A stretch of 51,675 bases of DNA from Bacteroidota bacterium (GTDB taxonomy: Bacteria; Bacteroidota; Ignavibacteria; Ignavibacteriales; Ignavibacteriaceae), in NCBI GenBank assembly GCA_021777835.1, contig JAJYDC010000020.1, positions 1-51,675 of the forward strand. Direction: 5' to 3'. Below are positions 2,711-51,664 of the stretch, one piece after another. A model generated the notes under the pieces. It was given only the letters and a program-made list of their open reading frames with translations. It did not search any database and was not told where the DNA came from. How positions within the stretch are numbered: the stretch's first letter is position 1; each line of letters begins with the position of its first letter. A program made the translations under genes and the position numbers.

Positions 2711-2722
2711 AATCAATATTGG

Positions 2723-2747
2723 AAGCCATCTCTTAATGAGATGGCTT
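2723..2747 (+). terminator. Hairpin terminator after the pump/propeller genes
   Basis: A perfect 10-bp stem AAGCCATCTC / GAGATGGCTT with a 5-base loop begins 12 bases after the propeller stop codon. Only a short T run follows (TTT then ACC), so it may be a weak intrinsic terminator. Confidence 0.65.
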
Positions 2748-2930
2748 TACCAATTAAAAGAATAAGACCTACCTTTTAATTAAATTAAGTTACTTTCATT
2801 CTTTTTTAGTAAAGAACAAGGGAATATGTCTTTTATTCAATTAATGTTAAAAATGACCTATCAATCTTCAATTCACAGAAGTTTTGGAGCAGAATTGCTA
2901 AATTGCAGGTAACAATTTTAATTTACTTAA

Positions 2931-4172: not shown

Positions 4173-4189
4173 CAATTTAATTTTATTAG

Positions 4190-4224
4190 TGCCTCTGAGG
4201 TATATTTGATTAACCGCAGAGGCA
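4190..4224. terminator. Bidirectional terminator between ispH and the DsbD-alpha-like gene
   Basis: Stem TGCCTCTG / CAGAGGCA (8 bp, extendable by GG/CC after one mismatch), loop about 15 bases. It lies between convergent genes, with T-rich sequence on the left for minus-strand transcripts and an AT-rich right flank for plus-strand transcripts. Confidence 0.7.
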
Positions 4225-4241
4225 TAATTATAATCAAGAAA

Positions 4242-4727
4242 CTATTTTACGATTGAACTGAACGGCTTTGACACAGGAAACAAGCACGTTTCATTGTTAC
4301 AGGGCTGATAATTTAACTCACCTTCAATTCTAAGCTTTCCTTTAAATTCTTTATTAGTTGGTTTTAATTCAACCTTTATTGTTGTTTCATTTTCGAATAG
4401 TGCCAATTCTGATTCTGAAAAGCTAAGTTTTTTAAGCATCGGCGGCGGGTAAGTTATTTTCACTACTTTGAATTCGTGTTTGTCTTGAAAATTAACTGAT
4501 GTGGGAGATAAGTTACTATCGAACGGCTTATCTGAATTTATATGCCAACCTTGTTTAATTTTCAGGACAAGAAACACATCAATAATTCCATCCTTTTTCA
4601 ATCGAGTTAGTGAAGTTTTTACCTTAAGGTCAACAATTTTCTCGGGAGAAATATCCTGAGAAAATAAATTTTGCATGAAAACGCAGAGAAACAATATAGG
4701 CATCAGCAAAAATATATTTCGTTTCAT
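4242..4727 (-). CDS. Secreted DsbD N-terminal (alpha) domain-like protein
   Basis: 161 residues. The signal peptide is about residues 1-22 (KRNIFLLMPILFLCVFMQNLFS), followed by an immunoglobulin-like domain of the DsbD-alpha type: the GWHINSDKP motif near residue 60, and near the C-terminus NYQPCNNETCLFP with C143 and C148 as the likely redox pair (CxxxxC). In DsbD this domain passes electrons from the membrane domain to periplasmic thioredoxins. Here it stands alone, with no membrane or C-terminal thioredoxin domain. I chose the ATG at 4727, which follows a purine-rich GGGGAACGGA stretch; a longer reading frame upstream overlaps the preceding gene and lacks a signal peptide at its start. It begins 22 bases after the TPR-thioredoxin gene and is probably co-expressed. 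Confidence 0.75.
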   Translation of the reverse strand: MKRNIFLLMPILFLCVFMQNLFSQDISPEKIVDLKVKTSLTRLKKDGIIDVFLVLKIKQGWHINSDKPFDSNLSPTSVNFQDKHEFKVVKITYPPPMLKKLSFSESELALFENETTIKVELKPTNKEFKGKLRIEGELNYQPCNNETCLFPVSKPFSSIVK

Positions 4728-4749
4728 ATTGATTCCGTTCCCCATAACA

Positions 4750-6753
4750 TTAATTAGCTTTTTGTGTTGATGCTTCAGCAGGTACATCAATATAATATGA
4801 TTGAAGGATTTCCTTTGTGGAGTTATTCTGTACCCACGCGACAATAGCCAGATTATTGCTATCAATTTTGTCAGTTTTAGCACGCCAGCCAGTAAATCGC
4901 ACATTTGGACGCCAGGAGGGATCTTTTGTCGGGTCACTAAGGTAATTTGTCAGTCCCTGTTCAATTTTATTAAGGTCAAAAACTTCATTATAATTTTCGG
5001 AATTATTTTTTAGATTTACAGCAATTTCATTTCTTGAACCAATAAGATTGCGAACAACATAAATTTGTTTATCAACTCCATTTCCACCTAAATAGTCAAT
5101 TGATTTCTCAGCTAGTGCCAAATGAAGGGAAGCATCTTGGAGAGGTTTACCTTTAATATCTAATTTCACATTTATTAGTTTTTCGTTTTTTACGGCACTA
5201 CCGGTAATATGCAATTCAGGTATTTCTTTCATCATTTTTGTAATTGCTAAGTTATAAACATTGAATCTGTTTTTTAATAAAAATTTAGGTCCGCCGCCGG
5301 TAACCTTTTCCTTGCCATCAAAGAAAACTGTAGGAGTTCCGAAATTTCCACCGTAATACTTATAACGTTGAAATGATTGCGGATTAGTAAGGGGGTCAGG
5401 TCCAGGGATATGGACATGATATTCTAAAATTGCGAGATCTTTTCTTGGATAATAATTTGACAACGCGTCAAATGCATAATCAGCAGCCGCACATGGGTTG
5501 CATTCAGCACCCGTAAATAATTCTGCAAGTACTACCTTACCGGAGGTTTTTTTATTAAAATGACCAGGCACAAAAGAAGCAAGTTCTTCTTTTTGCTTAT
5601 CAATCATATTTTGCAAGCCCTGTTTATCAATGCCTTCTTTTTGTGCAAGTTTGGCGGCAGCACTTGAAATTCTTTGATTGTCAAAGCCAATAACACCAGA
5701 TATGTATGCGTTCAATGCATTTTTATTTTGTCCTAGTTTTTCATAAGTATTACCCAGTGCAAACCAAAAATCAAAGTCCCAAGGATCATCGAACTCTTCT
5801 ATTGACTTCAAATCTGATAAAGCCAAATCTAATTTATTTTCTGCTAAATAGACTATACCAAGATTCTTCTTGAAAAGGATAATATCGTCAATGCTAGAAT
5901 TTTTATTTAATGAAGAGACTCCCTCCTTAGCCCATTTCTCTGCTTGAGGCAAGTTGACCCCCAGTTGAGCTAAGAAAACACTTGCGTTTGAATTAGTTGA
6001 AATTTTGTCTTTAGTTGAATTTTCTTCAAAATACTTTTTTAACGAAGCAGATGCCACTTCACTTTTTAGTTTATCTTGTTCTTCAATTGTTGATTTATCT
6101 TCAGAGACCCACTTATTCAGCCTTATGAGAGCTTGATCATTGTCACCATTTATAATAGCAAGCGCGGCTGTATTGATCGCCTCTAGTTTTTTACCAGTAG
6201 CTTCTTCAAAAGCAGCTAAGTTTAAAAGATAGGCAGGATCATTTTCGTGTCCAATAATTGCCTGCTTTTCTAGTACATAGGCAGAATCAAATCTTCCTAA
6301 ATCAAATAATACAAGAGCCCGAGTATCTAAATACATCGAAAGGTTTTGCGGATTATTGTTCCGAGCCAAATCTACGGCTCTCTTTGAATACACATCTGCT
6401 GAATCGAGTCCAACTTTTTTTTGTGCTAATGTATAAGCTACTTCGTTATAGGGGTTCATTCTCATTTCAGGAGGGATTATTGCAAAATATTGATTAACAA
6501 AATAAAGTGCAGAATCAACCTTCCCAAGGTCAAGATAGGCAGAAAAAATATTAGCTTTTGCTATACCTCCGTAATTGCTTCCCGGATAGTCTTTAATAAA
6601 CTGTTTCAAAGCTTCTATTTTTTGAGAGTTGTCTTTCAGGGCTGCAGCTTTCTTAATTGCATCGATTTCCTGGGTTTGAGCAAATTCAATATTGGTTAAA
6701 ATTAGAAAAAGAAACAGCACACTTAAGAAAAAATTCATTTTAGGTTTGAACAT
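4750..6753 (-). CDS. Secreted TPR protein with C-terminal thioredoxin-like domain
   Basis: 667 residues. A signal peptide (about 1-25, ending IEFAQTQ) is followed by roughly 370 residues of tetratricopeptide-type helices (for example ARNNNPQNLSMYLDTRALVL and WFALGNTYEKLGQNKNALNA). A thioredoxin-fold domain comes next: VVLAELFTGAECNPCAAADY with the redox pair C418-N-P-C421 and a cis-proline-like GTPTVFF about 70 residues later. A beta-rich tail of about 150 residues closes the protein. The start at 6753 has a clear ribosome binding site (AGGAG, 7 bases upstream) and puts the signal peptide at the N-terminus; an earlier ATG at 6822 does not. The CNPC site and the partner DsbD-alpha-like gene suggest periplasmic disulfide chemistry. 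The substrate is unknown. Confidence 0.8.
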   Translation of the reverse strand: MFKPKMNFFLSVLFLFLILTNIEFAQTQEIDAIKKAAALKDNSQKIEALKQFIKDYPGSNYGGIAKANIFSAYLDLGKVDSALYFVNQYFAIIPPEMRMNPYNEVAYTLAQKKVGLDSADVYSKRAVDLARNNNPQNLSMYLDTRALVLFDLGRFDSAYVLEKQAIIGHENDPAYLLNLAAFEEATGKKLEAINTAALAIINGDNDQALIRLNKWVSEDKSTIEEQDKLKSEVASASLKKYFEENSTKDKISTNSNASVFLAQLGVNLPQAEKWAKEGVSSLNKNSSIDDIILFKKNLGIVYLAENKLDLALSDLKSIEEFDDPWDFDFWFALGNTYEKLGQNKNALNAYISGVIGFDNQRISSAAAKLAQKEGIDKQGLQNMIDKQKEELASFVPGHFNKKTSGKVVLAELFTGAECNPCAAADYAFDALSNYYPRKDLAILEYHVHIPGPDPLTNPQSFQRYKYYGGNFGTPTVFFDGKEKVTGGGPKFLLKNRFNVYNLAITKMMKEIPELHITGSAVKNEKLINVKLDIKGKPLQDASLHLALAEKSIDYLGGNGVDKQIYVVRNLIGSRNEIAVNLKNNSENYNEVFDLNKIEQGLTNYLSDPTKDPSWRPNVRFTGWRAKTDKIDSNNLAIVAWVQNNSTKEILQSYYIDVPAEASTQKAN

Positions 6754-6842
6754 TGTTTTCTCCTGTCCATTATAATCATACAAAAATATTTTGCCGATAA
6801 AAGTAACGTTTTTTTTAGACAAATGTTCTATAAACCTAATAA

Positions 6843-6880
6843 AACAAATTTGTTATTCTTTTATAGATTAGGTAATTTTA
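6843..6880 (+). promoter_or_regulatory. Candidate promoter and 12-bp palindrome before the nucleotidyltransferase-metK-ahcY genes
   Basis: The divergent intergenic region holds the perfect palindrome AACAAATTTGTT (6843-6854). Overlapping it is TTGTTA (6850-6855), 17 bases, then TAATTT (6873-6878), a plausible sigma-70 pair. It can also be read as TTTG-N20-TAATTTTA, close to the Bacteroidota promoter pattern. Either would start transcription just before the ATG at 6901. This is a sequence match only. Confidence 0.35.
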
Positions 6881-6900
6881 AGGTTAAAATATAGGATAGA

Positions 6901-7887
6901 ATGAGTAAAATTAAAGCGATAATACCGGTTGCTGGAATTGGCAGCAGGTTAAAACCTCACACTTATTCCACTCCAAAAGTTTTATTGAATGTAGGGGGAA
7001 AGCCCATTATCGCCCACATTCTAGATAAGCTTATAGAAGAAGGAATAAACGAAGCAACATTCGTAATCGGTCATCTTGGCAACATGATAAAAGATTATGT
7101 AATTAAGTCGTATCCATCCATCAAAGCTGATTTTGTACAGCAGAAGGAAATGGAAGGGTTGGGGCATGCTATTTATAAAGCTATTCCTACTTTTAATTCC
7201 GATGAAATTTTTATAATTCTTGGAGACACAATTTTTGACGTAAATCTGAAGGATGTATTTAAGAATAAACAAACCTCCCTTGGTGTAAAGGAAGTTGAAG
7301 ACCCGAGACGATTCGGTGTTGCTGTAGTTAATAATGGTTATATCAAAAAGCTTATAGAAAAACCGCAAACATACGTTTCTAATTTAGCGCTAGTTGGACT
7401 TTATTACATATCGCATTCTGAAACATTAGCAAAGAGTCTGCGGGAATTAGTTGAAAAAGATGTAAGAACCAAAGGCGAACTTCAGTTAACAGATGCTTTA
7501 CAGATGATGATCGAATCCGGAGAAAACATATCCACATTTCCGGTTGAGGGATGGTATGATTGCGGTAATCCTGAGACACTTCTATCGACAAATAGGTTTT
7601 TACTTAATCATAAAAGTGTAAGCAAGAATTTTGAAAACGTCGTAATTAATCACCCGGTTTTTATTTCTGATAGTGCTGAAATCTCAAACTCAGTGATTGG
7701 TCCTTATACAACTATTGATGATGGCTGTAATATCTCCGAATGTATTATAAAGAATTCCATCGTGGGAACAAATGCACAGATATCGCGTTCATTATTAGAA
7801 AATTCTATCATTGGGAATAATTCTCTGATCAAAGGAAGTTACAAAAGACTTAATTCCGGTGATTCATCTGAAATAGATTTTTATTAA
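6901..7887 (+). CDS. Sugar-phosphate nucleotidyltransferase (RmlA/GlmU-like) with left-handed beta-helix tail
   Basis: 328 residues, cytoplasmic. It makes an NDP-sugar from NTP and a sugar-1-phosphate. The N-terminal Rossmann-like domain carries the nucleotide-binding signature VAGIGSRLKPHTYSTPKVLL (residues 10-29), the metal-binding LGDTIFD near 109 and the EGWYDCGNPE block near 216. The last ~90 residues have hexapeptide-repeat character (VINHPVFISDSAEISNSVIG and similar), forming a left-handed beta-helix as in archaeal and GlmU-like enzymes. No acetyltransferase domain of usual size is present. Sugar specificity cannot be read from the sequence. It is first of three closely spaced genes; metK follows after 21 bases. 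Confidence 0.85.
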   Translation: MSKIKAIIPVAGIGSRLKPHTYSTPKVLLNVGGKPIIAHILDKLIEEGINEATFVIGHLGNMIKDYVIKSYPSIKADFVQQKEMEGLGHAIYKAIPTFNSDEIFIILGDTIFDVNLKDVFKNKQTSLGVKEVEDPRRFGVAVVNNGYIKKLIEKPQTYVSNLALVGLYYISHSETLAKSLRELVEKDVRTKGELQLTDALQMMIESGENISTFPVEGWYDCGNPETLLSTNRFLLNHKSVSKNFENVVINHPVFISDSAEISNSVIGPYTTIDDGCNISECIIKNSIVGTNAQISRSLLENSIIGNNSLIKGSYKRLNSGDSSEIDFY

Positions 7888-7908
7888 TATATATAATAGG
7901 AAAATAAA

Positions 7909-9051
7909 ATGTCATACTTTTTCACTTCTGAATCTGTTTCCGAAGGGCATCCTGACAAAGTTAGTGATGCAATATCCGACGGAATTTTAGACGCAATTTA
8001 TAAGAAAGATCCGATGGCAAGAGTAGCTTGCGAAACTTTTGTTACAACTGGTTTGGTTCTAGTAGGCGGCGAAGTAACTACAAGCGCATACATAGAGGTA
8101 CCAGATATTGTTAGGCAGACAGTTAAAAATATTGGATATACAAGCGCGGATTATAAATTTGATTCCGAATCCTGCTCGGTATTAAATGCAATTCATTCAC
8201 AATCACCGGACATAGCAATGGGAGTAGATAAAGGTGGTGCAGGCGATCAAGGACTTATGTTTGGATATGCTTGTGATCAAACATCAGAGCTAATGCCAAT
8301 GCCAATAATGTTTGCACATAAATTAGTAAAGAAATTGGCAGACATTAGAAAGAATAATATAAAGCTGATGCCATATCTTCGTCCAGATTCAAAATCCCAA
8401 GTTACGGTTGAATATGACGATAATAATAAGCCTATTCGCGTTGACACTGTTGTAATTTCCACACAGCATGATGCGGATGCAAAGCAGAAAAAAATAAGAG
8501 AAGATGTTATTGAGAATGTAATTAAAAAAATTATACCCGAGAAATATCTTGATAAAAAGACGAAGTATTTTGTTAATCCAACGGGACGATTTGAAATAGG
8601 CGGTCCTCACGGAGATAGCGGACTAACAGGAAGAAAAATCATAGTTGATACTTACGGCGGCTGGGCACCTCATGGCGGAGGCGCATTCTCAGGAAAAGAT
8701 CCGTCTAAGGTTGATAGAAGCGCAGCATATGCAGCTAGGCATATTGCAAAAAATGTTGTTGCTGCCAAACTTGCAAATGAATGTTTAGTTCAGGTCGCAT
8801 ATGCTATTGGGGTTGCTCAACCTGTTTCAATTTTTGTTGACACAAAAGGTACTGGAAAAATTCCAGATAAAGAGATATCTAAAATGATATCGAAAGAAGT
8901 TGATTTAACTCCTAAAGGAATTATTGAAAGATTAAACTTGAGGAGACCAATCTACCAGAAGACTTCGGCATACGGTCATTTTGGACGAAACGATAAAGAT
9001 TTTACATGGGAACAATTGGATCTTGTCCCAATATTTAAGAAATATGCATAA
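7909..9051 (+). CDS. metK: S-adenosylmethionine synthetase
   Basis: Makes S-adenosylmethionine from methionine and ATP in the cytoplasm. 380 residues, the normal family length. The ATP-binding signature [18 protein letters not shown] includes H14 and D16. The active-site hexapeptide GAGDQG is at 110-115, and the second signature [19 protein letters not shown] is in the central domain, together with [14 protein letters not shown] ribosome binding site AGGAAA precedes the ATG. It sits between the nucleotidyltransferase and ahcY; with ahcY it covers production of SAM and disposal of S-adenosylhomocysteine. No SAM riboswitch is visible: the gap to the preceding gene is only 21 bases. Confidence 0.97.
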
Positions 9052-9080
9052 GTTTATTAATAAAGGATAAGGAAAATATA

Positions 9081-10412
9081 ATGAGTCAAATTGGAGTTAA
9101 TAAGGATATTGGCAAGTTGAAATATAAGGTAAAAGATATTGCGCTTGCAGAATGGGGACGTAAAGAAATAAAGCTTGCCGAAGCAGAGATGCCCGGGCTG
9201 ATGTCGCTAAGGAAAGAATACGGGCAAAGTAAGCCCTTAAAGGATGCAAGAATTGCTGGTTGTTTACACATGACTATTCAAACAGCAGTGCTTATTGAAA
9301 CTTTGGTAGAGTTAGGCGCTGAAGTTCAATGGTCGTCATGCAATATTTTTTCTACTCAAGATCATGCAGCTGCAGCAATAGCAGCAGCGGGGATACCGGT
9401 TTATGCATGGAAAGGAATGAACGCTGAAGAATTTGACTGGTGCATTGAACAAACTATTTTCTTCGGAGAGGGCTCAAACAAACCGTTAAACATGATACTT
9501 GACGATGGCGGTGATCTTACAAATATGGTACTTGATAAGTACCCAGAACTTGTATCGGGTATCAGGGGAATTTCGGAAGAGACAACAACAGGCGTTCATA
9601 GGTTATATGAACGAGTTACAAATGGAAAACTTCCAATACCCGCGTTCAATGTGAATGATTCCGTTACAAAATCTAAGTTTGATAATAAGTACGGTTGCCG
9701 TGAATCTTTAGTTGATGCTATAAGAAGAGCGACCGATCTAATGATGGCAGGCAAAGTTGCAGTTGTTGCTGGATACGGCGATGTGGGAAAGGGCTCTGCT
9801 CAATCATTAAGAAGCGCAGGAGTAAGAGTTATAGTTACTGAAATTGACCCTATTTGCGCGCTTCAGGCAGCAATGGATGGATATGAAGTGAAGAAAATGG
9901 TTAATGCTGTTCCAAGAGCTGATATTATTGTTACTGCCACAGGGAACAGGGATATCGTTACAGGAGAATATTTTAAGTTGATGAAAAATAATGCTGTTGT
10001 TTGCAATATCGGGCATTTTGATACCGAAATTGACATGGCATGGTTAAATAAGAATTATGGCAGCACAAAAGACACAATTAAGCCACAAGTCGACAAATAT
10101 ACCATCAACGGAAAAGATATAATTGTTCTTGCAGAAGGAAGACTGGTAAATCTAGGCTGCGCTACAGGTCACCCTTCTTTTGTTATGTCTAATTCATTTA
10201 CAAATCAGACTCTGGCACAAATTGAGCTTTGGAATCATTCTGATAAATATGAGAACAAAGTTTATATGCTTCCAAAACATCTTGATGAAAAAGTTGCAAT
10301 GCTTCATCTCGAAAAAATTGGCGTTGAGCTTGATACGTTATCATCCGAACAGGCAAAATATATTGGCGTAACTGTTGAAGGTCCGTTTAAGCCTGATTAT
10401 TACCGTTACTAA
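9081..10412 (+). CDS. ahcY: Adenosylhomocysteinase (S-adenosyl-L-homocysteine hydrolase)
   Basis: Hydrolyses S-adenosylhomocysteine to adenosine and homocysteine using tightly bound NAD, relieving product inhibition of methyltransferases. 443 residues, in the family range. It shows [20 protein letters not shown] (85-104), the DDGGDLT loop at 141-147, the NAD-binding [14 protein letters not shown] with GxGxxG at 231-236, and the GHFDTEIDM and C-terminal KPDYYRY signatures. It lies 29 bases after metK with an AAGGATAAGGA ribosome binding site, and the unit ends in a strong terminator. No methionine synthase is in the window to close the cycle. Confidence 0.97.
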
Positions 10413-42981: not shown

Positions 42982-43021
42982 AAACGGAAGAGAAAATTTA
43001 GTTAATTAACTCCTCCGCTTT
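42982..43021 (-). terminator. Probable terminator of the Ton operon
   Basis: On the minus strand, AAAGCGGAGGAG pairs with CTCTTCCGTTT, with one bulged G and one G-U pair, around a 17-base loop; the sequence TTATTTT follows. It lies 26 bases after the stop of the 46-residue gene. The stem is imperfect, so the call is moderate. Confidence 0.55.
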
Positions 43022-43046: not shown

Positions 43047-43187
43047 TTAAAGATGGAATACTGCAATAGTTAAATAATTAGCTAGTGCTGCAATTAAGAA
43101 TAATCCCACTAATATTACCAATAACCAAGCTAAAACTCTAACCCATGGAATAGCAAGATAACTTCTTAAGTTATATATCTTAATCAT
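43047..43187 (-). CDS. 46-residue single-pass membrane protein at the end of the Ton operon
   Basis: Small gene, family not recognised. The protein begins IKIYNLRSYLAIPWVRVLAW and has one strong hydrophobic segment (about 18-37, VLAWLLVILVGLFLIAALA), ending NYLTIAVFHL. It starts with ATG 13 bases after the TPR gene stop, with an AAAGGAA ribosome binding site 5 bases upstream, and a probable terminator follows its stop. Good start signals and tight spacing support a real gene; it could be a small subunit of whatever complex the operon makes. Confidence 0.6.
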   Translation of the reverse strand: MIKIYNLRSYLAIPWVRVLAWLLVILVGLFLIAALANYLTIAVFHL

Positions 43188-43200
43188 CTAATTCCTTTAT

Positions 43201-44586
43201 TTAAAGACTAAGAAGTCTTAAACCTTTTTTTGCATCGGCATTACCCGGGTCGATTGAAAGTACTGCCCTATATTCTTTTGCTGCTTCAGCTTTATTCCCG
43301 CTAAATGCATAAGCCTGAGCAAGCCATAAATGATATTGTGCACTATTTGGAGTATAACTCAGTGCAGTTTTTAGGCTTTGAATTGCATCTTTGTATTTTT
43401 TCTTAACAAGATTTGTATACCCGAAAAATCCGTTCGCTTCAGCAACTTCGTTTTTAAATTGATCTTCCTTGCCCGATGTAATTTTCAAAATTTTTGTGTA
43501 CACATCAGCTGCGTCATCATTGTTTCGCATATATTGATCGGTTCTTGCTAACCAAATTAAGGCAGGTAGATAATCGCTTTTAATGTTAATGGCTTGTACT
43601 AAGGCCGTCTTTGCGCTATCATAGTTTTGCATCTGTAAATAGCAAAGAGACTTATTTACGTAGGAGCTTACTGAGGTAGAATCAGACTTGATTCTACGAT
43701 CATAATAAACAATTGCTTGTGTATATTTCCCGGAACTCAAGTACATATTTGCGATTTCTTGATTTAGCTCGGTTAATGAAGAGTCCTTCGCCAAAGCTTT
43801 TATAAAATAAATAATTGCAACGGAATCTTGTTTAACAGCCTGAAATTCGCTTCCGACAGTAGAAAAATCAGTAGCTGAAAATAACGAATCAGGTACTGTG
43901 GATAAAATTTTCAAAGCTTCAGGAAAATTCTTGCTATACGTTAAAGATAATGCCTCAATTTTTTCTAACTTTAAGTCATTCGGGAATACAGTTAATCCTT
44001 TCTGGGTAACTTCAACAGCCTGAGAGAAATTTTGCATGAGGAACAATGATCTTGCAGCAAAAAAGTACGCATCATATTTCTTAGAATCGAAGGTTATATA
44101 TTTTTCGAGATAAAATGAAGCATTTGGATATTGCTTAGCATAATAAAGCAACCTACCTAAATTGTAGTACGCTTGCGAATAAGTTGAGTCTAGAGATATT
44201 ACCTGAAGATATTTATTAGCTGCATCTGTATAACTTTTTTGTTTTTCAAACGCCATTGCTATTTTAAATTTTATGTTGGCGTCAAGAGAATCTAGTTTTT
44301 CTGCTTTTTGATAATCGCTTATCGAAAGTTCCAACACTCCCATTTTATTATAAGCATCACCTAATCCTTCATATACCTTAGGATTATTTTCATCATTGGT
44401 AGACAGGTCAACCAAAATTTTTATAGCAATATCAGTTGAATCCTGCTTTAAGTAATCTTGAGCTATTGTCAGGGCTTTGTTATACTCTTTATTCTTTATA
44501 AACTTCGATGCCTCATCATATTTTTGCTGCGCAAATGTTAAACTTGTTAAAGCTACTAAAAGTGTAACGAAGGTAATTGCTTTCAT
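43201..44586 (-). CDS. Secreted TPR protein of the Ton operon
   Basis: 461 residues. Signal peptide KAITFVTLLVALTSLTFAQQ, then about eleven TPR units end to end, for example AYYNLGRLLYYAKQYPNASF, YIKKSLCYLQ-like YVNKSLCYLQMQNYDSAKTA and YHLWLAQAYAFSGNKAEAAK. Probably a periplasmic scaffold. It begins 13 bases after the PstS-like gene. The same order (Ton genes, substrate-binding lipoprotein, TPR protein) recurs in Bacteroidota as far as I recall. Confidence 0.82.
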   Translation of the reverse strand: MKAITFVTLLVALTSLTFAQQKYDEASKFIKNKEYNKALTIAQDYLKQDSTDIAIKILVDLSTNDENNPKVYEGLGDAYNKMGVLELSISDYQKAEKLDSLDANIKFKIAMAFEKQKSYTDAANKYLQVISLDSTYSQAYYNLGRLLYYAKQYPNASFYLEKYITFDSKKYDAYFFAARSLFLMQNFSQAVEVTQKGLTVFPNDLKLEKIEALSLTYSKNFPEALKILSTVPDSLFSATDFSTVGSEFQAVKQDSVAIIYFIKALAKDSSLTELNQEIANMYLSSGKYTQAIVYYDRRIKSDSTSVSSYVNKSLCYLQMQNYDSAKTALVQAINIKSDYLPALIWLARTDQYMRNNDDAADVYTKILKITSGKEDQFKNEVAEANGFFGYTNLVKKKYKDAIQSLKTALSYTPNSAQYHLWLAQAYAFSGNKAEAAKEYRAVLSIDPGNADAKKGLRLLSL

Positions 44587-44599
44587 CTTCTAATCCATA

Positions 44600-45466
44600 T
44601 TATTGATTTTGATTGATTTTTACAGGGACAGCTGCGGGTGCCAAATTCTGACCGAGAGCAATTTTCTGCCCAAGGTAACTTGTCAAAAATGTTGTAAACC
44701 CTGATGCAACACTTCTTCCCTTTTCATTTAAATAAATATATACTGTTTCCTTAAATGGATAATAGTCTTTGTATACCAATCCTGGATGCGGCTCGTAGTA
44801 ATTATCATCCAATTTATTTTGATTAAACTCACCTACTTTTAAAAATTTTATATCTGATGAATCCTGAACAGTATTAAAACTGAGCAATCCGATTTTATCA
44901 GTACTATTTTTTACAACTGCAAACACCGCACTATCACTAGGAACAACTTCAACATTTTTAGGAGCCTTCCCGTTTAATATTTTATCTAAGATATATTGAT
45001 ACGTACCTGTATTAGTTTGAGGAATTACAATTCTAATATTGTTGCTACTTCCTAGCAAGAGGCTTTGTATTTCGTCTATCCTTATATTTTGAATGCTACT
45101 GTTTTTGGGTGCTATTACAGCAATCGCGTTATAACAAAACTTGAATATATTCAAACCTATTTTATTATTATTCACAAAGTCTTGTTGCTTTTGGTTTAAA
45201 CCCATCGTACTTACTAACATCTTATAATTGCCATTTAATATTCCGGCTATTCCGTCAAATGGTGTAACTTTTTTCAAGTCTATTTTAGCAGTTTTATAAA
45301 GCGTGTCGAAAACTACGCTCTCTTTAATTACTACAGGGTAAACTGCTTCATCAACAGCTGCATTAAGATAGCCTTTTGTCGGAGTTACTTGGGGCTCTTG
45401 GCAGCCAGTAATAAATACTATTGTATAGAAAAATACTATGGCTATATAAAAGAGACTAACTTTCAT
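44600..45466 (-). CDS. PstS-like substrate-binding lipoprotein
   Basis: 288 residues. Lipoprotein signal with FITGC (lipidated C22), then a type II periplasmic-binding fold: NAAVDEAVYPVVIKESVVFD near the start, a central FDGIAGILNGNY and FKFCYNAIAVIAPKNS, and C-terminal FKETVYIYLNEKG. This is the pattern of PBP-like/PstS-type phosphate-binding proteins. The clear phosphate-site signature of PstS (SGxG-type loop) is not evident, so the ligand is open. No permease or ATPase is nearby; it is embedded in the Ton operon and overlaps the preceding small gene by 11 bases. Confidence 0.78.
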   Translation of the reverse strand: MKVSLFYIAIVFFYTIVFITGCQEPQVTPTKGYLNAAVDEAVYPVVIKESVVFDTLYKTAKIDLKKVTPFDGIAGILNGNYKMLVSTMGLNQKQQDFVNNNKIGLNIFKFCYNAIAVIAPKNSSIQNIRIDEIQSLLLGSSNNIRIVIPQTNTGTYQYILDKILNGKAPKNVEVVPSDSAVFAVVKNSTDKIGLLSFNTVQDSSDIKFLKVGEFNQNKLDDNYYEPHPGLVYKDYYPFKETVYIYLNEKGRSVASGFTTFLTSYLGQKIALGQNLAPAAVPVKINQNQ

Positions 45467-45653
45467 TTCTGTTGTTATTTTTGTAATAAGTAATTAAAAT
45501 CCTAAAGACACCGTATAGGATGAAGACAACTCCTAAAATAATACGGAAATTTAACGGGAAATTTATAGGTATGAAATATCCTGCAAGAAAAGCGGCACCG
45601 AGTATAATAAAAATCGATGCCATTGAATATGCAAGATACTTCATCCAAAGCAT
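45456..45653 (-). CDS. 65-residue two-helix membrane protein
   Basis: Two hydrophobic segments (about 8-27, AYSMASIFIILGAAFLAGYF, and 36-56, FRIILGVVFILYGVFRILITY) joined by PINFPLN, with a basic tail YKNNNRNES. Starts at 45653 with AAGG 6 bases upstream; an internal ATG at 45644 would shorten it by three residues. It lies 11 bases after tonB and overlaps the PstS-like gene by 11 bases, so it is clearly part of the operon. No family recognised; the size suggests an accessory subunit. Confidence 0.7.
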   Translation of the reverse strand: MLWMKYLAYSMASIFIILGAAFLAGYFIPINFPLNFRIILGVVFILYGVFRILITYYKNNNRNES

Positions 45654-45664
45654 TTGTAGCCTTG

Positions 45665-46405
45665 TTATTGATTAAGCTTAAATCTAAACGGTACTACAAC
45701 CCAGACCATTACAGGCGCTTTGTGCTGAATTGCCGGAGTGAAAACAAATTTCATCGCGGCATTAATGGCTGGCTGATTAAATACCTCAGAGTCACTCTTA
45801 ATTACAACTGCTTTTATAGGCTTGCCTTCTTTATTAACAAGAATTTTCACGTATACAGTCCCTTCAATTCCAGCTCTTTTTGCAAGATCAGGGTACTCGG
45901 GCTGCGCAGAAACCACGACTTCTGGTTGTTTTTCTACCGGAACAAATTCATTCATTCCCGGAACATCACTAGTTGGTGCATCAACTTTCAAATCCTTAGT
46001 AATCTGTACATTACCGCCTCCCGAGCCCTCACCAATTGGAGAGGATACTTGGCTCATCTGCTGCTGTGTTGCAATCGTTTGTTCTTTTGGTGCTTCAGCA
46101 TCAGGAACCGGAACTGGGGTACCAACAGTTGGCTTGACCGCCGGAGCAGAAACAGCCAGCTGCTGTTGAGTTTGATCATTTAAAGAAGGAGGAGGTCCAA
46201 GATCGCTATATTTTAAAATTCTAACCGTATCAATGTTACTTTCATCATCTTTAGAAATAGATTGAATGAAAATGTATGTACCAATTAGAAAAACGTGAAT
46301 AAGTACAGCGATTGTAAATCCGATGCTGAAATTTTTCGGATATAACTTCTTTAATTCGAAGGCACCATATTCCGTCTTGTCTATTGCAATTGTGTTATTA
46401 TTCAT
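45665..46405 (-). CDS. tonB: Energy transducer TonB
   Basis: 246 residues. Cytoplasmic N-terminus of about 28 residues, one membrane anchor (GFTIAVLIHVFLIGTYIFIQ, with a TonB-type histidine), a proline-rich periplasmic spacer (VGTPVPVPDAEAPKEQ) and a C-terminal domain with QPEYPDLAKRAGIEGTVYVK and AINAAMKFVFTPAIQ. It transmits proton-motive force from ExbB-ExbD to outer-membrane transporters. It lies directly after the two exbD genes. Confidence 0.93.
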   Translation of the reverse strand: MNNNTIAIDKTEYGAFELKKLYPKNFSIGFTIAVLIHVFLIGTYIFIQSISKDDESNIDTVRILKYSDLGPPPSLNDQTQQQLAVSAPAVKPTVGTPVPVPDAEAPKEQTIATQQQMSQVSSPIGEGSGGGNVQITKDLKVDAPTSDVPGMNEFVPVEKQPEVVVSAQPEYPDLAKRAGIEGTVYVKILVNKEGKPIKAVVIKSDSEVFNQPAINAAMKFVFTPAIQHKAPVMVWVVVPFRFKLNQ

Positions 46406-46419
46406 TTTTTACCTCGTTT

Positions 46420-46920
46420 TTAAGATGCCTTTAATAATGCTTTTGTATCAGTATCAGTCATAGGTGCAATAGAAAAGCGCTGCAGGTTAGCCAAATTTAA
46501 CTTGTCTATTAGATCAACCATCATGTGATACTTGCATTTCCTATCAAACTTTAATAGAATAACAAGCTTAGGGTTTCCTTGAGCTTGCTTATCAAAAAAG
46601 GTTTTTAAACCACTGATATTAATAGGTTGAGGCTTATCTGTTGCGGCTGCATAATAGACGGAATCATTAGCATCTACATAAACTGTTAATAAGTTCGACT
46701 GCGCTATTTCTATTTTTGTTTTTGCGTCTGGAGGTAAATTTATCTCCAGAGTTTGTTGTTTAAGTAAAACGGTAGTAAGCATGAAGAATGTCAATAAGAG
46801 AAAAGCTACGTCAACCATTGGTGTCATGTCTACCCTAACACCGGCTCTTTTTTTCTTGCCTTTCTTTTGGTGACCTTTTGACTTCCCTTCTCTTCCACCG
46901 CCAGCGTCAACTCCACTCAT
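46420..46920 (-). CDS. exbD: ExbD/TolR biopolymer transport protein, second copy
   Basis: 166 residues. A basic, glycine-rich cytoplasmic N-terminus (GKSKGHQKKGKKKRAG), one membrane helix with the proton-carrying aspartate D37 in VDMTPMVDVAFLLLTFFM, and a periplasmic domain with a disordered acidic segment. The N-terminus is about 17 residues longer than in the neighbouring copy, which suggests the two are not interchangeable. Lies 23 bases after the first copy and 14 before tonB. Confidence 0.93.
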   Translation of the reverse strand: MSGVDAGGGREGKSKGHQKKGKKKRAGVRVDMTPMVDVAFLLLTFFMLTTVLLKQQTLEINLPPDAKTKIEIAQSNLLTVYVDANDSVYYAAATDKPQPINISGLKTFFDKQAQGNPKLVILLKFDRKCKYHMMVDLIDKLNLANLQRFSIAPMTDTDTKALLKAS

Positions 46921-46943
46921 TTTTAATTTCCTCTATAATTAAA

Positions 46944-47414
46944 TTATTTCTTATCTACAATTGAATTTGTGATCATGGCGAATCTTGTAATATTTGTTTT
47001 TTGCAAGGTGCCCATTATATCTTCAATAGTTCCATAATCTGCATCTACGTCGCCTTTGATAACTGTTCTTAGCCTGGGATCACTTATACGGGCTTGAACT
47101 AGAAGATCCGCAAGATTTTCTACCTTAATCTGAACCATTCTTTTAAGCTTAGCCTCTTGACCGAATAACCTTGCCATCAATGCAGGGGCATCTACGCCCA
47201 TGTATATATTCCCAGCCTTATCGACATATATCGTCATAACGTCTGAATCAGGAAGTTTGAATGCCGAATGGGAAGAAGGCACCTCAATTTTCACTTGCTG
47301 GGCAGGTGAAAACTGCGTAGTTAGCATGAAGAATGTTAGAAGTAGAAAAGCAACGTCAACCATGGGCGTCATATCGATTTTTACGGCTATACGTCCTTTT
47401 TTAATTTTTGGCAT
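46944..47414 (-). CDS. exbD: ExbD/TolR biopolymer transport protein, first copy
   Basis: 156 residues with the same layout: basic N-terminus PKIKKGRIAVK, helix with D20 in IDMTPMVDVAFLLLTFFM, and a periplasmic domain (VDADYGTIEDIMGTLQKTNI). Paired exbD genes next to exbB and tonB are common in Bacteroidota. Lies 12 bases after exbB. Confidence 0.93.
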   Translation of the reverse strand: MPKIKKGRIAVKIDMTPMVDVAFLLLTFFMLTTQFSPAQQVKIEVPSSHSAFKLPDSDVMTIYVDKAGNIYMGVDAPALMARLFGQEAKLKRMVQIKVENLADLLVQARISDPRLRTVIKGDVDADYGTIEDIMGTLQKTNITRFAMITNSIVDKK

Positions 47415-47426
47415 AGTTAAGCCTCT

Positions 47427-48203
47427 TTATTTCGATTTAAGGATTTGAATAACATTATAGCTTGCTTCATCTACCATATATGTAAAATTATCAACTTTAT
47501 TAACAAAGAAATTATAAGCAACAATTCCAAGAATAGCTGTTATAAGTCCACCTGCTGTATTGATAAGTGCTTCAGAAATACCTGTTGCAAGTTGAATTGC
47601 ATCCGGAGTGCCTGCGTGCGCCATAGCAGCAAATGCTCTAATCATACCGATAACCGTACCTAGTAAACCAACCATTGTTGCAATTGAAGCAATTGTTGAT
47701 AGTGTAATAAGATTTTTCTCTAACAATGGAGTTTCAAGCATAGAAGCTTCTTCAACAGCTCTTTGAACCTCTACTAATTGTTTTTCGGCGTCAACTGATT
47801 TTCCTTTTACCGTGAGCTCTTTATATCTCAAAAGAGAAGCCTTAATAACGTTTGCTACCGATCCTCTTTGTTTATCACAGCTTTCTATAGCTGCATCGTA
47901 GTCACCGCCTTCTAATTGAGCGATTACATCTTTGAAAAAACTAGGTACTGCTCTCTTGCCGCCCGCTTTTTTTAGAGTTAGTATTCTTTCAAAAATAATA
48001 GCGACATCCATAAGTGAAAGCATTATTAATAGAACAACTAAAGGTCCGCCAGTATATATGGTTCCTAATAGGTTACCGCCAGAATTTGTTCTTCCAACGC
48101 CGTCAACAAAGTTGGCGGGGTTCCCGAAAACGAAGTTATAAATTGCTAATGCAATTAAGAAAGCAGCAATTGTAAGGACAGTGATAAAAACAGATTGTTT
48201 CAT
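47427..48203 (-). CDS. exbB: ExbB/TolQ/MotA-type proton channel protein
   Basis: 258 residues, three membrane helices. After the first helix there is GGPLVVLLIMLSLMDVAIIF, then a cytoplasmic domain (ERILTLKKAGGKRAVPSFFK) and the conserved pair of helices LLEKNLITLSTIASIATMVG and LLGTVIGMIRAFAAMAHAGT, with SEALINTAGGLITAILGIVA. Forms the ion channel of the Ton motor with ExbD. First gene of the operon; a 286-base gap separates it from the upstream regulator genes. Confidence 0.95.
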   Translation of the reverse strand: MKQSVFITVLTIAAFLIALAIYNFVFGNPANFVDGVGRTNSGGNLLGTIYTGGPLVVLLIMLSLMDVAIIFERILTLKKAGGKRAVPSFFKDVIAQLEGGDYDAAIESCDKQRGSVANVIKASLLRYKELTVKGKSVDAEKQLVEVQRAVEEASMLETPLLEKNLITLSTIASIATMVGLLGTVIGMIRAFAAMAHAGTPDAIQLATGISEALINTAGGLITAILGIVAYNFFVNKVDNFTYMVDEASYNVIQILKSK

Positions 48204-48489: not shown

Positions 48490-49818
48490 CTAAATCTTGT
48501 ATTCTTTTCTTTTTCTCCAAAGAGTCGTAAGCGAAATTCCGAGAATTCTGGCTGCGTCCTTTGGATTGCTAAATTTTCTTAGTGTATCTATTATATAGTT
48601 CTTTTCTACTTCAGCTAGACTTGGAACGATTGTTCCAAACTCTTTATTAGTGCCTGCAAAAATTTCAACTGGAAGGTTTTCCGGTTTGATTATTCTATCC
48701 TTTGCCAATACTATCGAACGATTAATTACATTTTCAAGTTCTCTAATATTTCCAGGCCATGAATATTCGTTTAACAATTTCATTACATCAGCGGAAATGG
48801 TAATATCTAAATCTGGAGAATACTTTTTTAGGAAATGTTCCACCAATAGCGGAATATCCTCTTTCCTTTCTCTTAAAGGAGGTAATTTTATTCTGATTCC
48901 GCTCAAACGGTAATAAAAATCTTCTCTTAAATCGCCATTCTTAATATCTTCGTCTATATTTCTGTTTGTTGCACTTATTATTCTAACATTTACTTTCCTA
49001 GTTATGCTCTCCCCTACACGCTCGAACTCCATGCTTTGAAGAAATCGCAAAAGTTTTACTTGCATCGGCTTAGAGATCTCACCTACTTCATCTAAAAAAA
49101 CGCTCCCTTGATCAGCCATTTCAAATCTTCCGATCCTATCTTTTGAGGCACCTGTGTAAGATCCCTTTATATGCCCGAATACTTCGCTTTCAAAAAGACT
49201 TTCAGGTATTGCAGCACAGTTTACTGTAATAAAGATATTTGATTCTCTTTTACTACTTTCATGGATAAATCGTGCTAGTATTTCCTTTCCTGTTCCGCTT
49301 TCACCTTCAATTAAAACTGAAATATCACTATCAGCAATATCTTTGCTCAATTTCAAAATTTCCCGCATCGTATAATTATTAGATATAATTTCCCCGGTTC
49401 CAATGGATTCTTCTATCTGCGCCCTAAGTCCTTTCACTTCTTTTAAAAGCATGTGATGCTCAAACACTTTTTCGGAAAGATGAATAAATTCTTTATGAGT
49501 AAAAGGTTTTGTTATATAATCATATGCGCCGCCTTTGATTGCTTCGACTGCTGTTTCTATTGAACCATGCGCTGTCATCAATACGACTGTTGTATCCGGA
49601 GAAATTGTTTTTAATTGAGAAAGGACTTGGAGTCCGTCAATCGGCTCCATTTTTAGATCTATGAAAGCAATATCAAAATAAATTTCTTGTGCTCTCTTTA
49701 ATGCTTCCACTGGGTTACTAAATACCTCAGGTGAAAAATTTTGCGAAGTTAGAGAAAGCTCTATTACTTTTAAAATATTTAACTCATCATCAACAACCAA
49801 AACCTTGCTTCTATTCAT
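48490..49818 (-). CDS. Sigma-54-dependent response regulator (NtrC family)
   Basis: 442 residues. Receiver domain (1-120) with acidic pocket D10/D11, phosphorylated aspartate D54 (AFIDLKM) and K104. AAA+ domain (about 140-380) with Walker A GESGTGKE (172-179), Walker B VFLDEV (240-245) and a sigma-54 contact loop GSYTGA at 219-224, in place of the consensus GAFTGA. C-terminal Fis-type helix-turn-helix (KDAARILGISLTTLWRKR, 420-437). It overlaps the upstream histidine kinase by 8 bases. Targets unknown; the exbB operon downstream is one possibility. Confidence 0.93.
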   Translation of the reverse strand: MNRSKVLVVDDELNILKVIELSLTSQNFSPEVFSNPVEALKRAQEIYFDIAFIDLKMEPIDGLQVLSQLKTISPDTTVVLMTAHGSIETAVEAIKGGAYDYITKPFTHKEFIHLSEKVFEHHMLLKEVKGLRAQIEESIGTGEIISNNYTMREILKLSKDIADSDISVLIEGESGTGKEILARFIHESSKRESNIFITVNCAAIPESLFESEVFGHIKGSYTGASKDRIGRFEMADQGSVFLDEVGEISKPMQVKLLRFLQSMEFERVGESITRKVNVRIISATNRNIDEDIKNGDLREDFYYRLSGIRIKLPPLRERKEDIPLLVEHFLKKYSPDLDITISADVMKLLNEYSWPGNIRELENVINRSIVLAKDRIIKPENLPVEIFAGTNKEFGTIVPSLAEVEKNYIIDTLRKFSNPKDAARILGISLTTLWRKRKEYKI

Positions 49819-51664
49819 TTCTTTGAACCGGTAAAATTATTTCAAACTTACTACCCATTCCGGGCTTACTATATACATTTATTGAACCCTTGTGAAGTTC
49901 AATTATTTCCTTTGCAATTGTTAATCCTAGTCCGACACTTCCGGGACGGCTTCCACTTACTTGAACAAACTTATCAAAAATTTTGTCAATATATTCAGGG
50001 CTTATTCCGCTGCCTGTATCGGATATTGTTATTATAATGCTAGTATTTTTAGCTGATGTAATTACATTTATATCGCCTCCTTTGTCAGTAAATTTTATAG
50101 AATTCCCTATAAAATTTCCTATTGCCCTTATTAAATAATCATAGTCAGCAAATATAGGAGGTAGCGATTCATCAGGCATAAAATTAAGAGAAATTTTCTT
50201 TTCTTTGCATTGAAGTGAAAATGATTTAATACATTCTTCAATCAATGAATTAATTTTAAGTTTTTCAAAGTTAAGCTGGATTCCCCCGGACTCTATGCGC
50301 GATAGCTCTAATATTTCTTTAACTAAACGGTTAAGACGGTCATAATCCTCTTTCATAGAAATTATAAGCTCATTTTGCTTTGTAGACAGTTCACCAACAA
50401 CTCCGTCCTCAAGGATTCCTATGGCCATTCCTATTGAAGTTAATGGTGTTTTAAGCTCATGAGAAACTTTTGCAACAAATTCCGACTTCAGTCTGTCGAG
50501 TTCTTCATATTTAGTAATATCGCTAAAGACAATCAAAGCAGCGTTTATATCATTCTCAGGCAAAACTATTGAAGAATATCTTATTTTATAAAACCTTACT
50601 CTTCCATTCGTATCGATAAGTCTCAAAACTTTTTCATCTTCATCTGAATTTATTGGCGAAGGCGATGTTACATATTTTTTAATTTCTTTATAAATGCTTT
50701 CGTCTTTAATTACGTCGTTTAGAAATACTTTTTCGGACTTCAAATTACCAAAATCTTCTTTGAATGCTTTATTTGCAAGAAGGATTTCCATGCTGCTGTT
50801 CACCATCAATACTGGGTCGTTAATGCTTTCAACAATTACATCCGACTTCCTTTTTTCATAAAGGATCTTATTGATATTAAGTTCTTCATATTTCTTAAGT
50901 TTACCAACCATACTGTTAAATTCATCTGCTAGAATACCTATTTCATCTGAATCATCGGTCTGAATTTCTTGATCAAAGTTCCCCGCGGCAACGTACTTCA
51001 CTGATCTAGTTAGATCGCTTACAGGCTTAACAATAAAGCTTGAGAATTTTGTGCTAAACACCAAGCTAATCACGGTTCCAAGTATAGCTAAGAATAACAT
51101 AGTAAAGGCGGCTATCCTTGTAATTGATTGTACCCTATCATCTGCTCGGCTAATAAAGTTATGGTTGGTCTCAAAAATATGGTAACATTTCGACTTGATA
51201 TTCGAAATTAGATTTATCGCTTGAACATATTGGTTTTTTTCAACTGGGTTGGTAAAAAGAAATGAGTTGTTTACTACAGAGCTTATCTCAGAAAGAAAAA
51301 CTCTGTATTGATCGTTTAAGCTGTCCAGAAAATTTATTTGATCCGGAGTATTTGCTGCCTCCCTTGCTTTTTCGAACCAGAAGAAAAAGTCCTGTTTGGC
51401 ATATTGGAATAGTTTTTCCCCGCGGTTGGGATTTTCCTTATCAATTATCATAAATAAGGCATTTGTTTGATCGTCAAGAGACCGAACCATATTATCCGCA
51501 GCAACTATACTTGAATAGTTCTGTACGATAATAGATCTAAATGATTCATTAAGCCTATTAAAGTTATAAAGGCTCCAGAACATAACACCGATCATTATTA
51601 AAATAACGACGATATAACCGGTGAGAATTTTTGCCTTTAAGGTTGTAAAGAGAGTTCTAAACAT
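49811..51664 (-). CDS. Membrane sensor histidine kinase
   Basis: 617 residues. Membrane helix 1 (about 14-34), a periplasmic region of about 150 residues predicted as helical bundle, helix 2 (about 184-206), HAMP (about 207-260), PAS (about 270-385), then the kinase core: H402 in FVAKVSHELKTPL, N521 in LIRAIGNFIGNSIKF, and glycine-rich boxes DTGSGISPEYI and GSVGLGLTIAK. This layout resembles KinB-type kinases that partner with NtrC-family regulators. It overlaps the regulator gene by 8 bases. The start is near the window edge; the frame stays open upstream, so a slightly longer N-terminus cannot be excluded. Confidence 0.93.
   Translation of the reverse strand: MFRTLFTTLKAKILTGYIVVILIMIGVMFWSLYNFNRLNESFRSIIVQNYSSIVAADNMVRSLDDQTNALFMIIDKENPNRGEKLFQYAKQDFFFWFEKAREAANTPDQINFLDSLNDQYRVFLSEISSVVNNSFLFTNPVEKNQYVQAINLISNIKSKCYHIFETNHNFISRADDRVQSITRIAAFTMLFLAILGTVISLVFSTKFSSFIVKPVSDLTRSVKYVAAGNFDQEIQTDDSDEIGILADEFNSMVGKLKKYEELNINKILYEKRKSDVIVESINDPVLMVNSSMEILLANKAFKEDFGNLKSEKVFLNDVIKDESIYKEIKKYVTSPSPINSDEDEKVLRLIDTNGRVRFYKIRYSSIVLPENDINAALIVFSDITKYEELDRLKSEFVAKVSHELKTPLTSIGMAIGILEDGVVGELSTKQNELIISMKEDYDRLNRLVKEILELSRIESGGIQLNFEKLKINSLIEECIKSFSLQCKEKKISLNFMPDESLPPIFADYDYLIRAIGNFIGNSIKFTDKGGDINVITSAKNTSIIITISDTGSGISPEYIDKIFDKFVQVSGSRPGSVGLGLTIAKEIIELHKGSINVYSKPGMGSKFEIILPVQRNE

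Follow-up and report, generated by a model that had tools for sequence, protein, structure and literature searches.

What does a PstS-like lipoprotein do in an operon that encodes a Ton motor and no ATP-binding cassette (ABC) permease? The question is raised by contig JAJYDC010000020.1 of a Bacteroidota bacterium of the Ignavibacteriaceae (assembly GCA_021777835.1), of which we analyzed a stretch of 51,675 nucleotides, hereafter the window. A run of eight open reading frames (ORFs) on its minus strand reads, from 48203 to 43047, exbB-exbD-exbD-tonB, followed by genes for a 65-residue two-helix protein, a lipoprotein related to substrate-binding proteins (SBP), a tetratricopeptide repeat (TPR) protein, and a 46-residue protein. 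For glycans, iron, and heme, Bacteroidota depend strongly on TonB-dependent uptake, the import across the outer membrane that a proton-driven pump powers. We find that the operon is a Ton type found in many Bacteroidota with three dedicated partners, namely the SBP, the TPR protein, and the two-helix protein. A functional link of these three with the Ton motor is very probable, and we infer, with fair but lesser confidence, that they act as its accessory subunits.

Composition of the operon

The run had been described from the letters alone by a first-pass annotation, and ORF calls, intergenic gaps, Pfam matches, and a hydropathy script all agree with the eight places, the strand, and the tight packing given there. 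The gaps along the direction of transcription are 12, 23, 14, 11, −11, 13, and 13 bp, and a terminator scan found no minus-strand terminator inside the run. Hydrophobic segments number 4, 1, 1, 1, 2, 1, 1, and 1 from exbB to the last gene, with the two segments of the 65-residue protein and the single one of the 46-residue protein as described. The description of a PstS-like lipoprotein in a Ton run that holds no ABC permease is likewise borne out within these eight genes.

The exbB product (258 aa; 47427..48203) matches Pfam MotA_ExbB with 106.1 bits (E = 1.4e-30; cut-off 22.9) and has an extra N-terminal hydrophobic segment, one of its four predicted segments. The two exbD products (156 aa, 46944..47414; 166 aa, 46420..46920) match Pfam ExbD with 87.7 bits (E = 8.9e-25) and 92.9 bits (E = 2.1e-26), respectively. 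In both copies, DMTPMVDVAFLLL opens the membrane helix and the acidic residue in the helix is present; we take the Asp of DMTPMVDVAFLLL to be the catalytic residue. The tonB product (246 aa; 45665..46405) has a single N-terminal helix and a C-terminal TonB_C domain (69.4 bits, E = 3.8e-19). By its ExbB, ExbD, and TonB domains, the operon is a Ton energy-transduction system. The genes that follow, also on the minus strand, encode the 65-aa two-helix membrane protein (45456..45653), which falls in no named family, the SBP (288 aa; 44600..45466), whose gene overlaps the preceding one by 11 bp, the TPR protein (461 aa; 43201..44586) with its hydrophobic N terminus, and the 46-aa single-helix protein (43047..43187).

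Gene order in relatives

A survey of gene neighborhoods, which the first-pass annotation had proposed as a check, found the order conserved in relatives. All 13 same-genus loci, from 12 genomes, show exbB-exbD-exbD-tonB-65aa-SBP-TPR-46aa as far as their contigs reach. One starts within the SBP gene (L035), one is cut in both exbB and the TPR gene (L043), one has its 65-aa ORF called with a longer start (L037), and one holds an extra tonB-like gene (L046). We detected the 46-aa protein at 12 of these loci, the 13th being truncated where its contig stops, and at none of the loci scanned beyond the genus; it counts as an extra of the genus. The other seven genes of the run recur across many Bacteroidota families, and the named loci nearest to the window include "Bacteroidetes" and Ignavibacteriales metagenome-assembled genomes. 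Within the sample of relatives, 45 of 59 genomes have an SBP match at E 1e-3, the weak ones including PstS proteins such as that at L073.

The order of the two halves of the set is not fixed. Among 80 named loci, the SBP gene has the exb genes upstream in 54, downstream in 19, and on neither side in 7. The 19 permuted loci read 2TM-SBP-TPR-exbB-exbD-exbD-tonB as far as contigs reach, where 2TM is the two-helix protein gene; by title, 12 are Bacteroidales and 7 are Bacteroidetes, Bacteroidota, or Bacteroidia. Six of the 7 loci with exb genes on neither side meet a contig end (L075, L076, L120, L127, L132, and L149); L136, from Botryobacter ruber, does not.

We then counted contexts over 138 distinct SBPs, whose loci were chosen by SBP match and not at random; the 13 loci of the genus (L034-L046) are left out. 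Of these SBPs, 104, which we call Ton-linked, have two or more exb genes within seven ORFs, while 7 are linked to pst genes and 12 stand in other contexts; the remaining 15 have a TPR gene without two nearby exb genes, over half of them at contig ends. Because a TPR gene is among the next two ORFs downstream in 97 of the 104 Ton-linked cases, the association of SBP, TPR, and Ton genes goes beyond chance. A match to the 65-aa-family profile lies within two ORFs upstream in 72 of the 104.

Some loci depart from these arrangements. L178 has four TonB-like genes between exbD and the 65-aa gene and another before the SBP gene. A second type of locus in Ignavibacteria (L089, L095, L104, and L105; also L056 and L057) reads exbB-exbD-exbD-SBP and then encodes a protein of ≈460-490 aa, mostly with a lipobox; no ordinary tonB intervenes, and on contigs that extend far enough a TonB-like or unknown protein of 476-477 aa precedes exbB. 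The small genomes of a whole family, f21, carry an exbB-exbD-tonB run of the type in the window with no SBP-TPR half alongside in the three loci viewed (L214, L215, and L217), a natural loss.

Separated halves and co-occurrence across genomes

In six genomes that we checked (G020, G065, G070, G088, G194, and G222), the SBP-TPR half stands alone, and in all six an exbB-exbD-exbD run of the type found in Ton-linked loci (module type) lies elsewhere. The tonB gene adjoins the displaced run in five; in G222, a TonB gene is beside the SBP half. The halves are ≈18-28 kb apart in G020, G088, and G194, and ≈1.2 Mb apart on one contig in G065.

Co-occurrence over 247 genomes of the phylum gave the same picture. 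Of these, 140 have module ExbB (profile A3, E ≤ 1e-50) and 88 have a Ton-type SBP (profile A4, E ≤ 1e-50). All 88 genomes with a Ton-type SBP, from 25 families, have module ExbB, and at 1e-50 a Ton-type SBP occurs in 0 of the 107 genomes without it. Weaker SBP matches (1e-36 to 1e-44) are found in 12 of these 107; we took them as PstS-like, and the one neighborhood viewed, in G047, is pst-linked. The A4 profile and the 1e-50 line were adopted because the first SBP profile, A1, was too loose, catching PstS-like proteins as well at E 1e-10. The line was drawn after the scores had been seen, and the margin, 4.5e-51 for the weakest Ton type vs 2e-44 for the next when taken per genome, is narrow per match (173.6 vs 165 bits); both the ExbB and the SBP profiles were built from Ton-linked loci. 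Module ExbBs also carry their own mark, a segment beginning within the first 25 aa in 87 of 92, vs 6 of 18 other ExbBs. This extra N-terminal segment marks the clade better than an N-terminal motif that we set aside as too loose, since the motif is present in only 66 of the 92.

As a control, we took 20 genomes, mostly without a listed SBP match and some with weak PstS-like ones. Eighteen have tandem exbD genes, and one tandem locus per genome was used (G091 and G115 hold a second pair, neither on the module ExbB list). At 17 of the 18 loci, exbB is of another kind, scoring 98-127 bits vs 292-376 at the six loci with a displaced module run, and there is no SBP match among the listed same-strand neighbors of these 17. 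The eighteenth, in G252, is a full exbB-exbD-exbD-tonB-SBP-TPR locus that the first profile had missed.

The first-pass annotation had suggested a single energised envelope complex. That idea gains for the SBP, the TPR protein, and the two-helix protein, which are conserved with the Ton motor even where permuted or apart, and fails to extend to the 46-aa protein, which is confined to the genus. Might the genes be neighbors by chance, or inherited together as a plain operon with no shared function? Inheritance would explain the constant order within the genus; given the permuted order, the retention of both halves where they are separated, and the co-occurrence over 25 families, we give this explanation very little credence.

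The lipoprotein and its degenerate phosphate site

The SBP has a lipobox with Cys22 and matches PBP_like_2 (55 bits, E = 1.3e-14). Against TIGR02136, the NCBIfam model for PstS, it scores 43 bits with a cut-off of 206.6; at E 1e-3 or better, the model matches 26 of 29 aligned SBP members. In the AlphaFold2 model (predicted local distance difference test, pLDDT, 88.3), the two-lobed fold is intact, and the top Protein Data Bank (PDB) match is 4gd5_A (E = 6e-20); phosphate-binding proteins are the best PDB matches by model and by sequence profile alike. BLASTP of the SBP against the PstS of its own genome gave no useful match (E = 0.28).

To compare binding sites, we aligned four loops, presumably the phosphate-binding loops, in 7 pst-linked and 118 Ton-side rows, leaving aside the 12 SBPs in other contexts and one locus, L166. 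The Gly-Ser of loop 1, each residue present in 7/7 pst rows, is replaced on the Ton side by Val or Ala (97/118) and by Asp (93/118), and the column that follows is Glu in 97/118 Ton-side rows and Asp in 6/7 pst rows. Loop 2, Gly-Ser-Gly with 7/7 at each position in the pst rows, is gone on the Ton side. Loop 3 has Ser or Thr and then Arg, and the Arg is retained in 97/118 Ton-side rows. In loop 4, an Arg found in 7/7 pst rows gives way to Pro or Asp in 98/118, with the Ser (105/118) and the Gly after it (74/118) partly retained. Judged from these alignments, the lipoprotein is a PstS fold in which most of the predicted phosphate-site residues have been lost.

A tree of 52 of the 104 Ton-linked SBPs, the window SBP, and all others except L070 separates the pst-linked from the Ton-side SBPs with a Shimodaira-Hasegawa-like approximate likelihood ratio test (SH-aLRT) support of 100. 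Of the SBPs in other contexts, L192 groups with the pst-linked proteins and ten group with the Ton side. The PstS of the window's own genome forms a very long branch, and its placement is therefore unsure.

Phosphate genes were sought directly. The window's own genome has pstS-pstC-pstA-pstB-phoU on another contig, C86, complete with its own PstS (gene names by reading; pstC over cut-off). A PF12849 match on contig C82 was set aside, as it looks like a LysR-type regulator. Among 32 module genomes picked by hand from 8 families, 9 have a PstC over cut-off and 23 have none at that level. For comparison, a published survey gives pstS in 26 of 102 strains (PMC8115612). Across loci L034-L193, no pstC or pstA match comes within nine ORFs of an SBP gene that also has exb genes in that range; L155 and L177 have weak ATPase matches alone, at 42 and 73 bits. 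Near the pst-linked SBPs (L073, L180, L183, L188, L189, and L193) there are no exb genes, and none of them adjoins a TPR gene.

One locus stands apart. In L166, from G222 (positions 2403-10095), pstC-A-B genes lie upstream, followed by a 368-aa ORF, TonB, a relative of the 65-aa gene, SBP, and TPR, with no exb genes nearby. The pstC-A-B products score 328, 354, and 324 bits to those of the window's genome, no pstS is labeled in view, and G222 has its exbB run on a different contig. Loop 1 of this SBP reads VDEN by eye, so the phosphate site is lost there too. The first-pass annotation had counted a pst permease beside this lipoprotein in other genomes as evidence against its proposal; no such pairing occurs in any locus with exb genes, and one does in this single locus without them.

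That the lipoprotein is an ordinary phosphate-binding protein feeding PstCAB would fit its PstS fold and best PDB matches, the 26 of 29 members that match TIGR02136, and the gene order of L166. The largely lost site residues, L166 included, the lack of similarity to the genome's own PstS, the separate pst operon, and the scarcity of PstC among module genomes make this most improbable, and the phosphate role raised in the first-pass annotation finds no support. The way in which the genes keep together suggests working parts of a pump and not parts of a phosphate importer. A different role in binding, in which the lipoprotein takes a non-phosphate small ligand entering through TonB-dependent receptors and tunes or gates the motor by sensing that ligand or handing it over, would make use of the intact two-lobed fold and of a new conserved site pattern (the Asp and Glu of loop 1, the Arg of loop 3, and the Ser of loop 4). 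No ligand is known and no pst permease accompanies the Ton-linked loci; the site also varies between rows, in loop 2 and at the first position of loop 4, as a structural role allows, and we regard ligand binding as unlikely.

The TPR protein and the small membrane proteins

The window's TPR protein matches TPR_2 with 107 bits (E = 9.3e-32). In loci in which the SBP gene comes first, the TPR protein is at least 700 aa long in 16 of 19, and all 11 of these long proteins that were scanned have a C-terminal CarboxypepD_reg-like domain, 10 of them over cut-off; Pfam gave no such match in the window's own TPR protein. One report implicates a domain of this kind in receptor-TonB contact (PMC12204202).

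Neither the 65-aa nor the 46-aa protein matches a Pfam family over cut-off, and the 65-aa group as a whole has only scattered weak Pfam matches. Over 17 aligned rows of the same gene order, the 65-aa family conserves two Gly, a Tyr, and an Arg, and its profile also matches in other families of the phylum, for example at L160, L161, and L165. Counted less strictly, as any small ORF with a transmembrane segment, such a gene lies immediately 5′ of the SBP gene in 83 of 92 Ton-linked loci.

Comparison with known systems

The closest described parallel is the TonB2 system of Riemerella anatipestifer, exbB2-exbD21-exbD22-tonB2, and what follows on it is taken from sections of PMC4446302. Like the operon in the window, it is a two-exbD Ton operon with an annotated SBP adjoining, and it has a strong role in hemin and iron use: loss of tonB2 strongly lowers hemin uptake and reduces growth on iron-depleted medium. 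Unlike the operon in the window, it is named and cloned as four core genes, and those sections mention no TPR gene, two-helix gene, or SBP role. In Escherichia coli carrying a Riemerella receptor, the four-gene TonB2 clone is inactive and the three-gene TonB1 clone is active, yet TonB1 seems not to be needed for iron at home, for a reason the authors call not understood. By analogy, the failure of the four-gene clone fits a need for extra genes, being compatible with it without showing it.

From the parallel with R. anatipestifer TonB2 alone, the window's motor may energise receptor-mediated uptake. Client receptors are present in its genome, which has 20 Plug-domain matches, 19 of them over cut-off; none of the 20 is on the window's own contig, C93. 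The genome has 9 TonB_C and 4 MotA_ExbB matches. A second run of exbB, exbD, and tonB is found on contig C49 (L228, 5600-7569), ≈8 kb from a Plug protein, and Riemerella TonB1 resembles it in gene content.

Other reports touch on single components. In Flavobacterium psychrophilum, loss of exbD2 impairs growth at low iron (as cited in PMC9331221), and every sample shows high expression of its TonB-ExbBD genes (PMC9723704). Bacteroides thetaiotaomicron BT2664-68 resembles the operon in the window in that one gene run encodes ExbDs, ExbB, and a protein with a substrate-binding domain; it is known here by one table line, and that source assigns it no function (PMC10434189). The TonB2 system of Vibrio vulnificus is, like the window's, a Ton operon with dedicated extras, one of them the 425-aa TPR protein TtpD2, which is essential to it; unlike the window's, it comprises six proteins including TtpC and TtpB, and no SBP is mentioned in the part of PMC6957404 consulted. 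The two TPR proteins are likened by type and not by orthology. A single protein of the window's run matches MotA_ExbB in Pfam, no TtpC or TtpB profile having been searched.

The order of the genes also recalls Tol-Pal, a proton motor with a lipoprotein and a TPR protein in one operon, ordered tolQ-tolR-tolA-tolB-pal-cpoB. There too, the run finishes with a lipoprotein followed by a TPR protein, and the set in the window could be the Bacteroidota counterpart, a motor that tethers the outer membrane and not a nutrient motor. The NCBIfam scores lean the same way, far under cut-off: ExbB scores 111.6 bits as TolQ vs 68.9 as ExbB, reaching neither equivalog cut-off, and both ExbDs score higher as TolR. 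Set against this, the window run has a TonB C-terminal domain and no TolB, and Pfam finds no OmpA domain in any of its eight proteins. TolB_N is absent from the window's genome, and this absence is unrelated to the module, as TolB_N is over cut-off in 2 of 47 genomes picked by hand, one with and one without the module. The published mutants point to iron and hemin uptake (PMC4446302; F. psychrophilum exbD2 cited in PMC9331221). We consider a Tol-like role quite unlikely.

Flanking features

A gene for a sigma-54-type response regulator (48490..49818, minus strand; Pfam Response_reg, Sigma54_activat, HTH_8) lies upstream of exbB, and upstream of that is a sensor histidine kinase gene (49811..51664, minus strand; HisKA, HATPase_c, HAMP). 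Of 60 named loci, 16 have an ORF pair of kinase and regulator sizes, identified by size alone, ahead of exbB, and the pair may for this reason regulate the Ton operon in Ignavibacteria. It is a frequent neighbor in that group and stands outside the wider conserved gene set. On the other side, a terminator-like hairpin (42982..43020, minus strand; 11-bp outer stem, −16.9 kcal/mol, z −4.25) lies 3′ of the 46-aa gene, with 0 of 200 shuffles equally good, and a gene for a pyridoxal phosphate-dependent decarboxylase is downstream of the run. A sigma-70 promoter scan was dropped, since its 26 sites about equal the 21.8 (sd 4.8) in shuffles.

Discussion

If the three partners serve as accessory subunits of the motor, the small two-helix protein would lie alongside the ExbB pentamer within the inner membrane. 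In the periplasm, the lipoprotein would join with the secreted TPR protein in a frame, which would hold TonB in position or link it to receptors of the outer membrane. A motor made of just the four core proteins would then work poorly, and the lipoprotein would be a binding-protein fold put to new use and not an importer's receptor; it shares fold and superfamily (PBP_like_2) with the PstS of a Pst importer, which unlike it has an adjoining permease, an intact site, and a separate place in the tree. We favor this accessory-subunit reading because of the co-occurrence of 88/88 vs 0/107, the permuted order, and the keeping of both halves where they lie apart, and because the pst-linked SBPs split off and the phosphate site is lost. 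By analogy, the CarboxypepD_reg-like domain on long TPR proteins and the precedents of TtpD2 and Riemerella TonB2 point in the same direction.

Several observations weigh against it. All 52 genomes with module ExbB and no SBP at the 1e-50 line belong to family f21, where a weaker SBP match (1e-36 or better) is found in 23 and none at 1e-36 in 29. Three of the weak f21 SBPs group with the Ton side of the tree, and at L184, the one f21 locus put to Pfam, the SBP gene is away from Ton genes, with a GGDEF protein and an FtsX permease as neighbors. Two further families, f19 and f34 (7 of the 88 genomes), have the SBP gene away from Ton genes and no module TPR gene in the four loci viewed (L174, L176, L190, and L191), the first three of which hold a tandem pair of SBP genes; exbB runs in two genomes of these families (L218 and L220) end in a 65-aa-family match. 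Since f21 retains ExbB while its SBP match is weak or missing, and in f19 and f34 the SBP lies away from Ton genes, the set can evidently come apart. In L166, the SBP and TPR genes follow pstC-A-B with no exb genes nearby. We know of no interaction, localization, or mutant for the SBP, TPR, or 65-aa gene.

The published systems add to these points. On plates, R. anatipestifer mutants in a single tonB gene grow without a strong defect; receptor specificity is the authors' explanation of the hemin result in E. coli, and both Riemerella Ton clones fail with Serratia receptors (PMC4446302). Taking the SBP neighbor of Riemerella TonB2 as an orthologue is based on its printed annotation and its place. 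BT2664-68 has values of −3.1 to −2.7 in an iron table (PMC10434189), which we read as lower without iron, and this is not as expected of an iron-uptake motor.

Taken together, we rank ligand sensing by the lipoprotein next after the accessory-subunit reading, then a Tol-like role, and then phosphate import. A bolder form of the accessory-subunit reading would make the Ton motor of many Bacteroidota a seven-part trans-envelope machine whose core is inactive alone, and in which a PstS-derived, ligand-responsive clutch, a TPR scaffold, and the two-helix protein decide the pull of TonB; this we hold only tentatively, as well short of probable.

In the open full-text literature, as distinct from subscription papers and preprints, the text consulted gave no account of the seven-gene set or of a role for the SBP, and it treats the Bacteroidota Ton motor as ExbBD-TonB alone. 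If the three genes do encode motor subunits, reconstitution with four genes would be incomplete, and the mismatch of Riemerella TonB2, important at home and inactive in E. coli, would gain a testable cause. A protein annotated as a phosphate transporter would then be mislabeled in many genomes.

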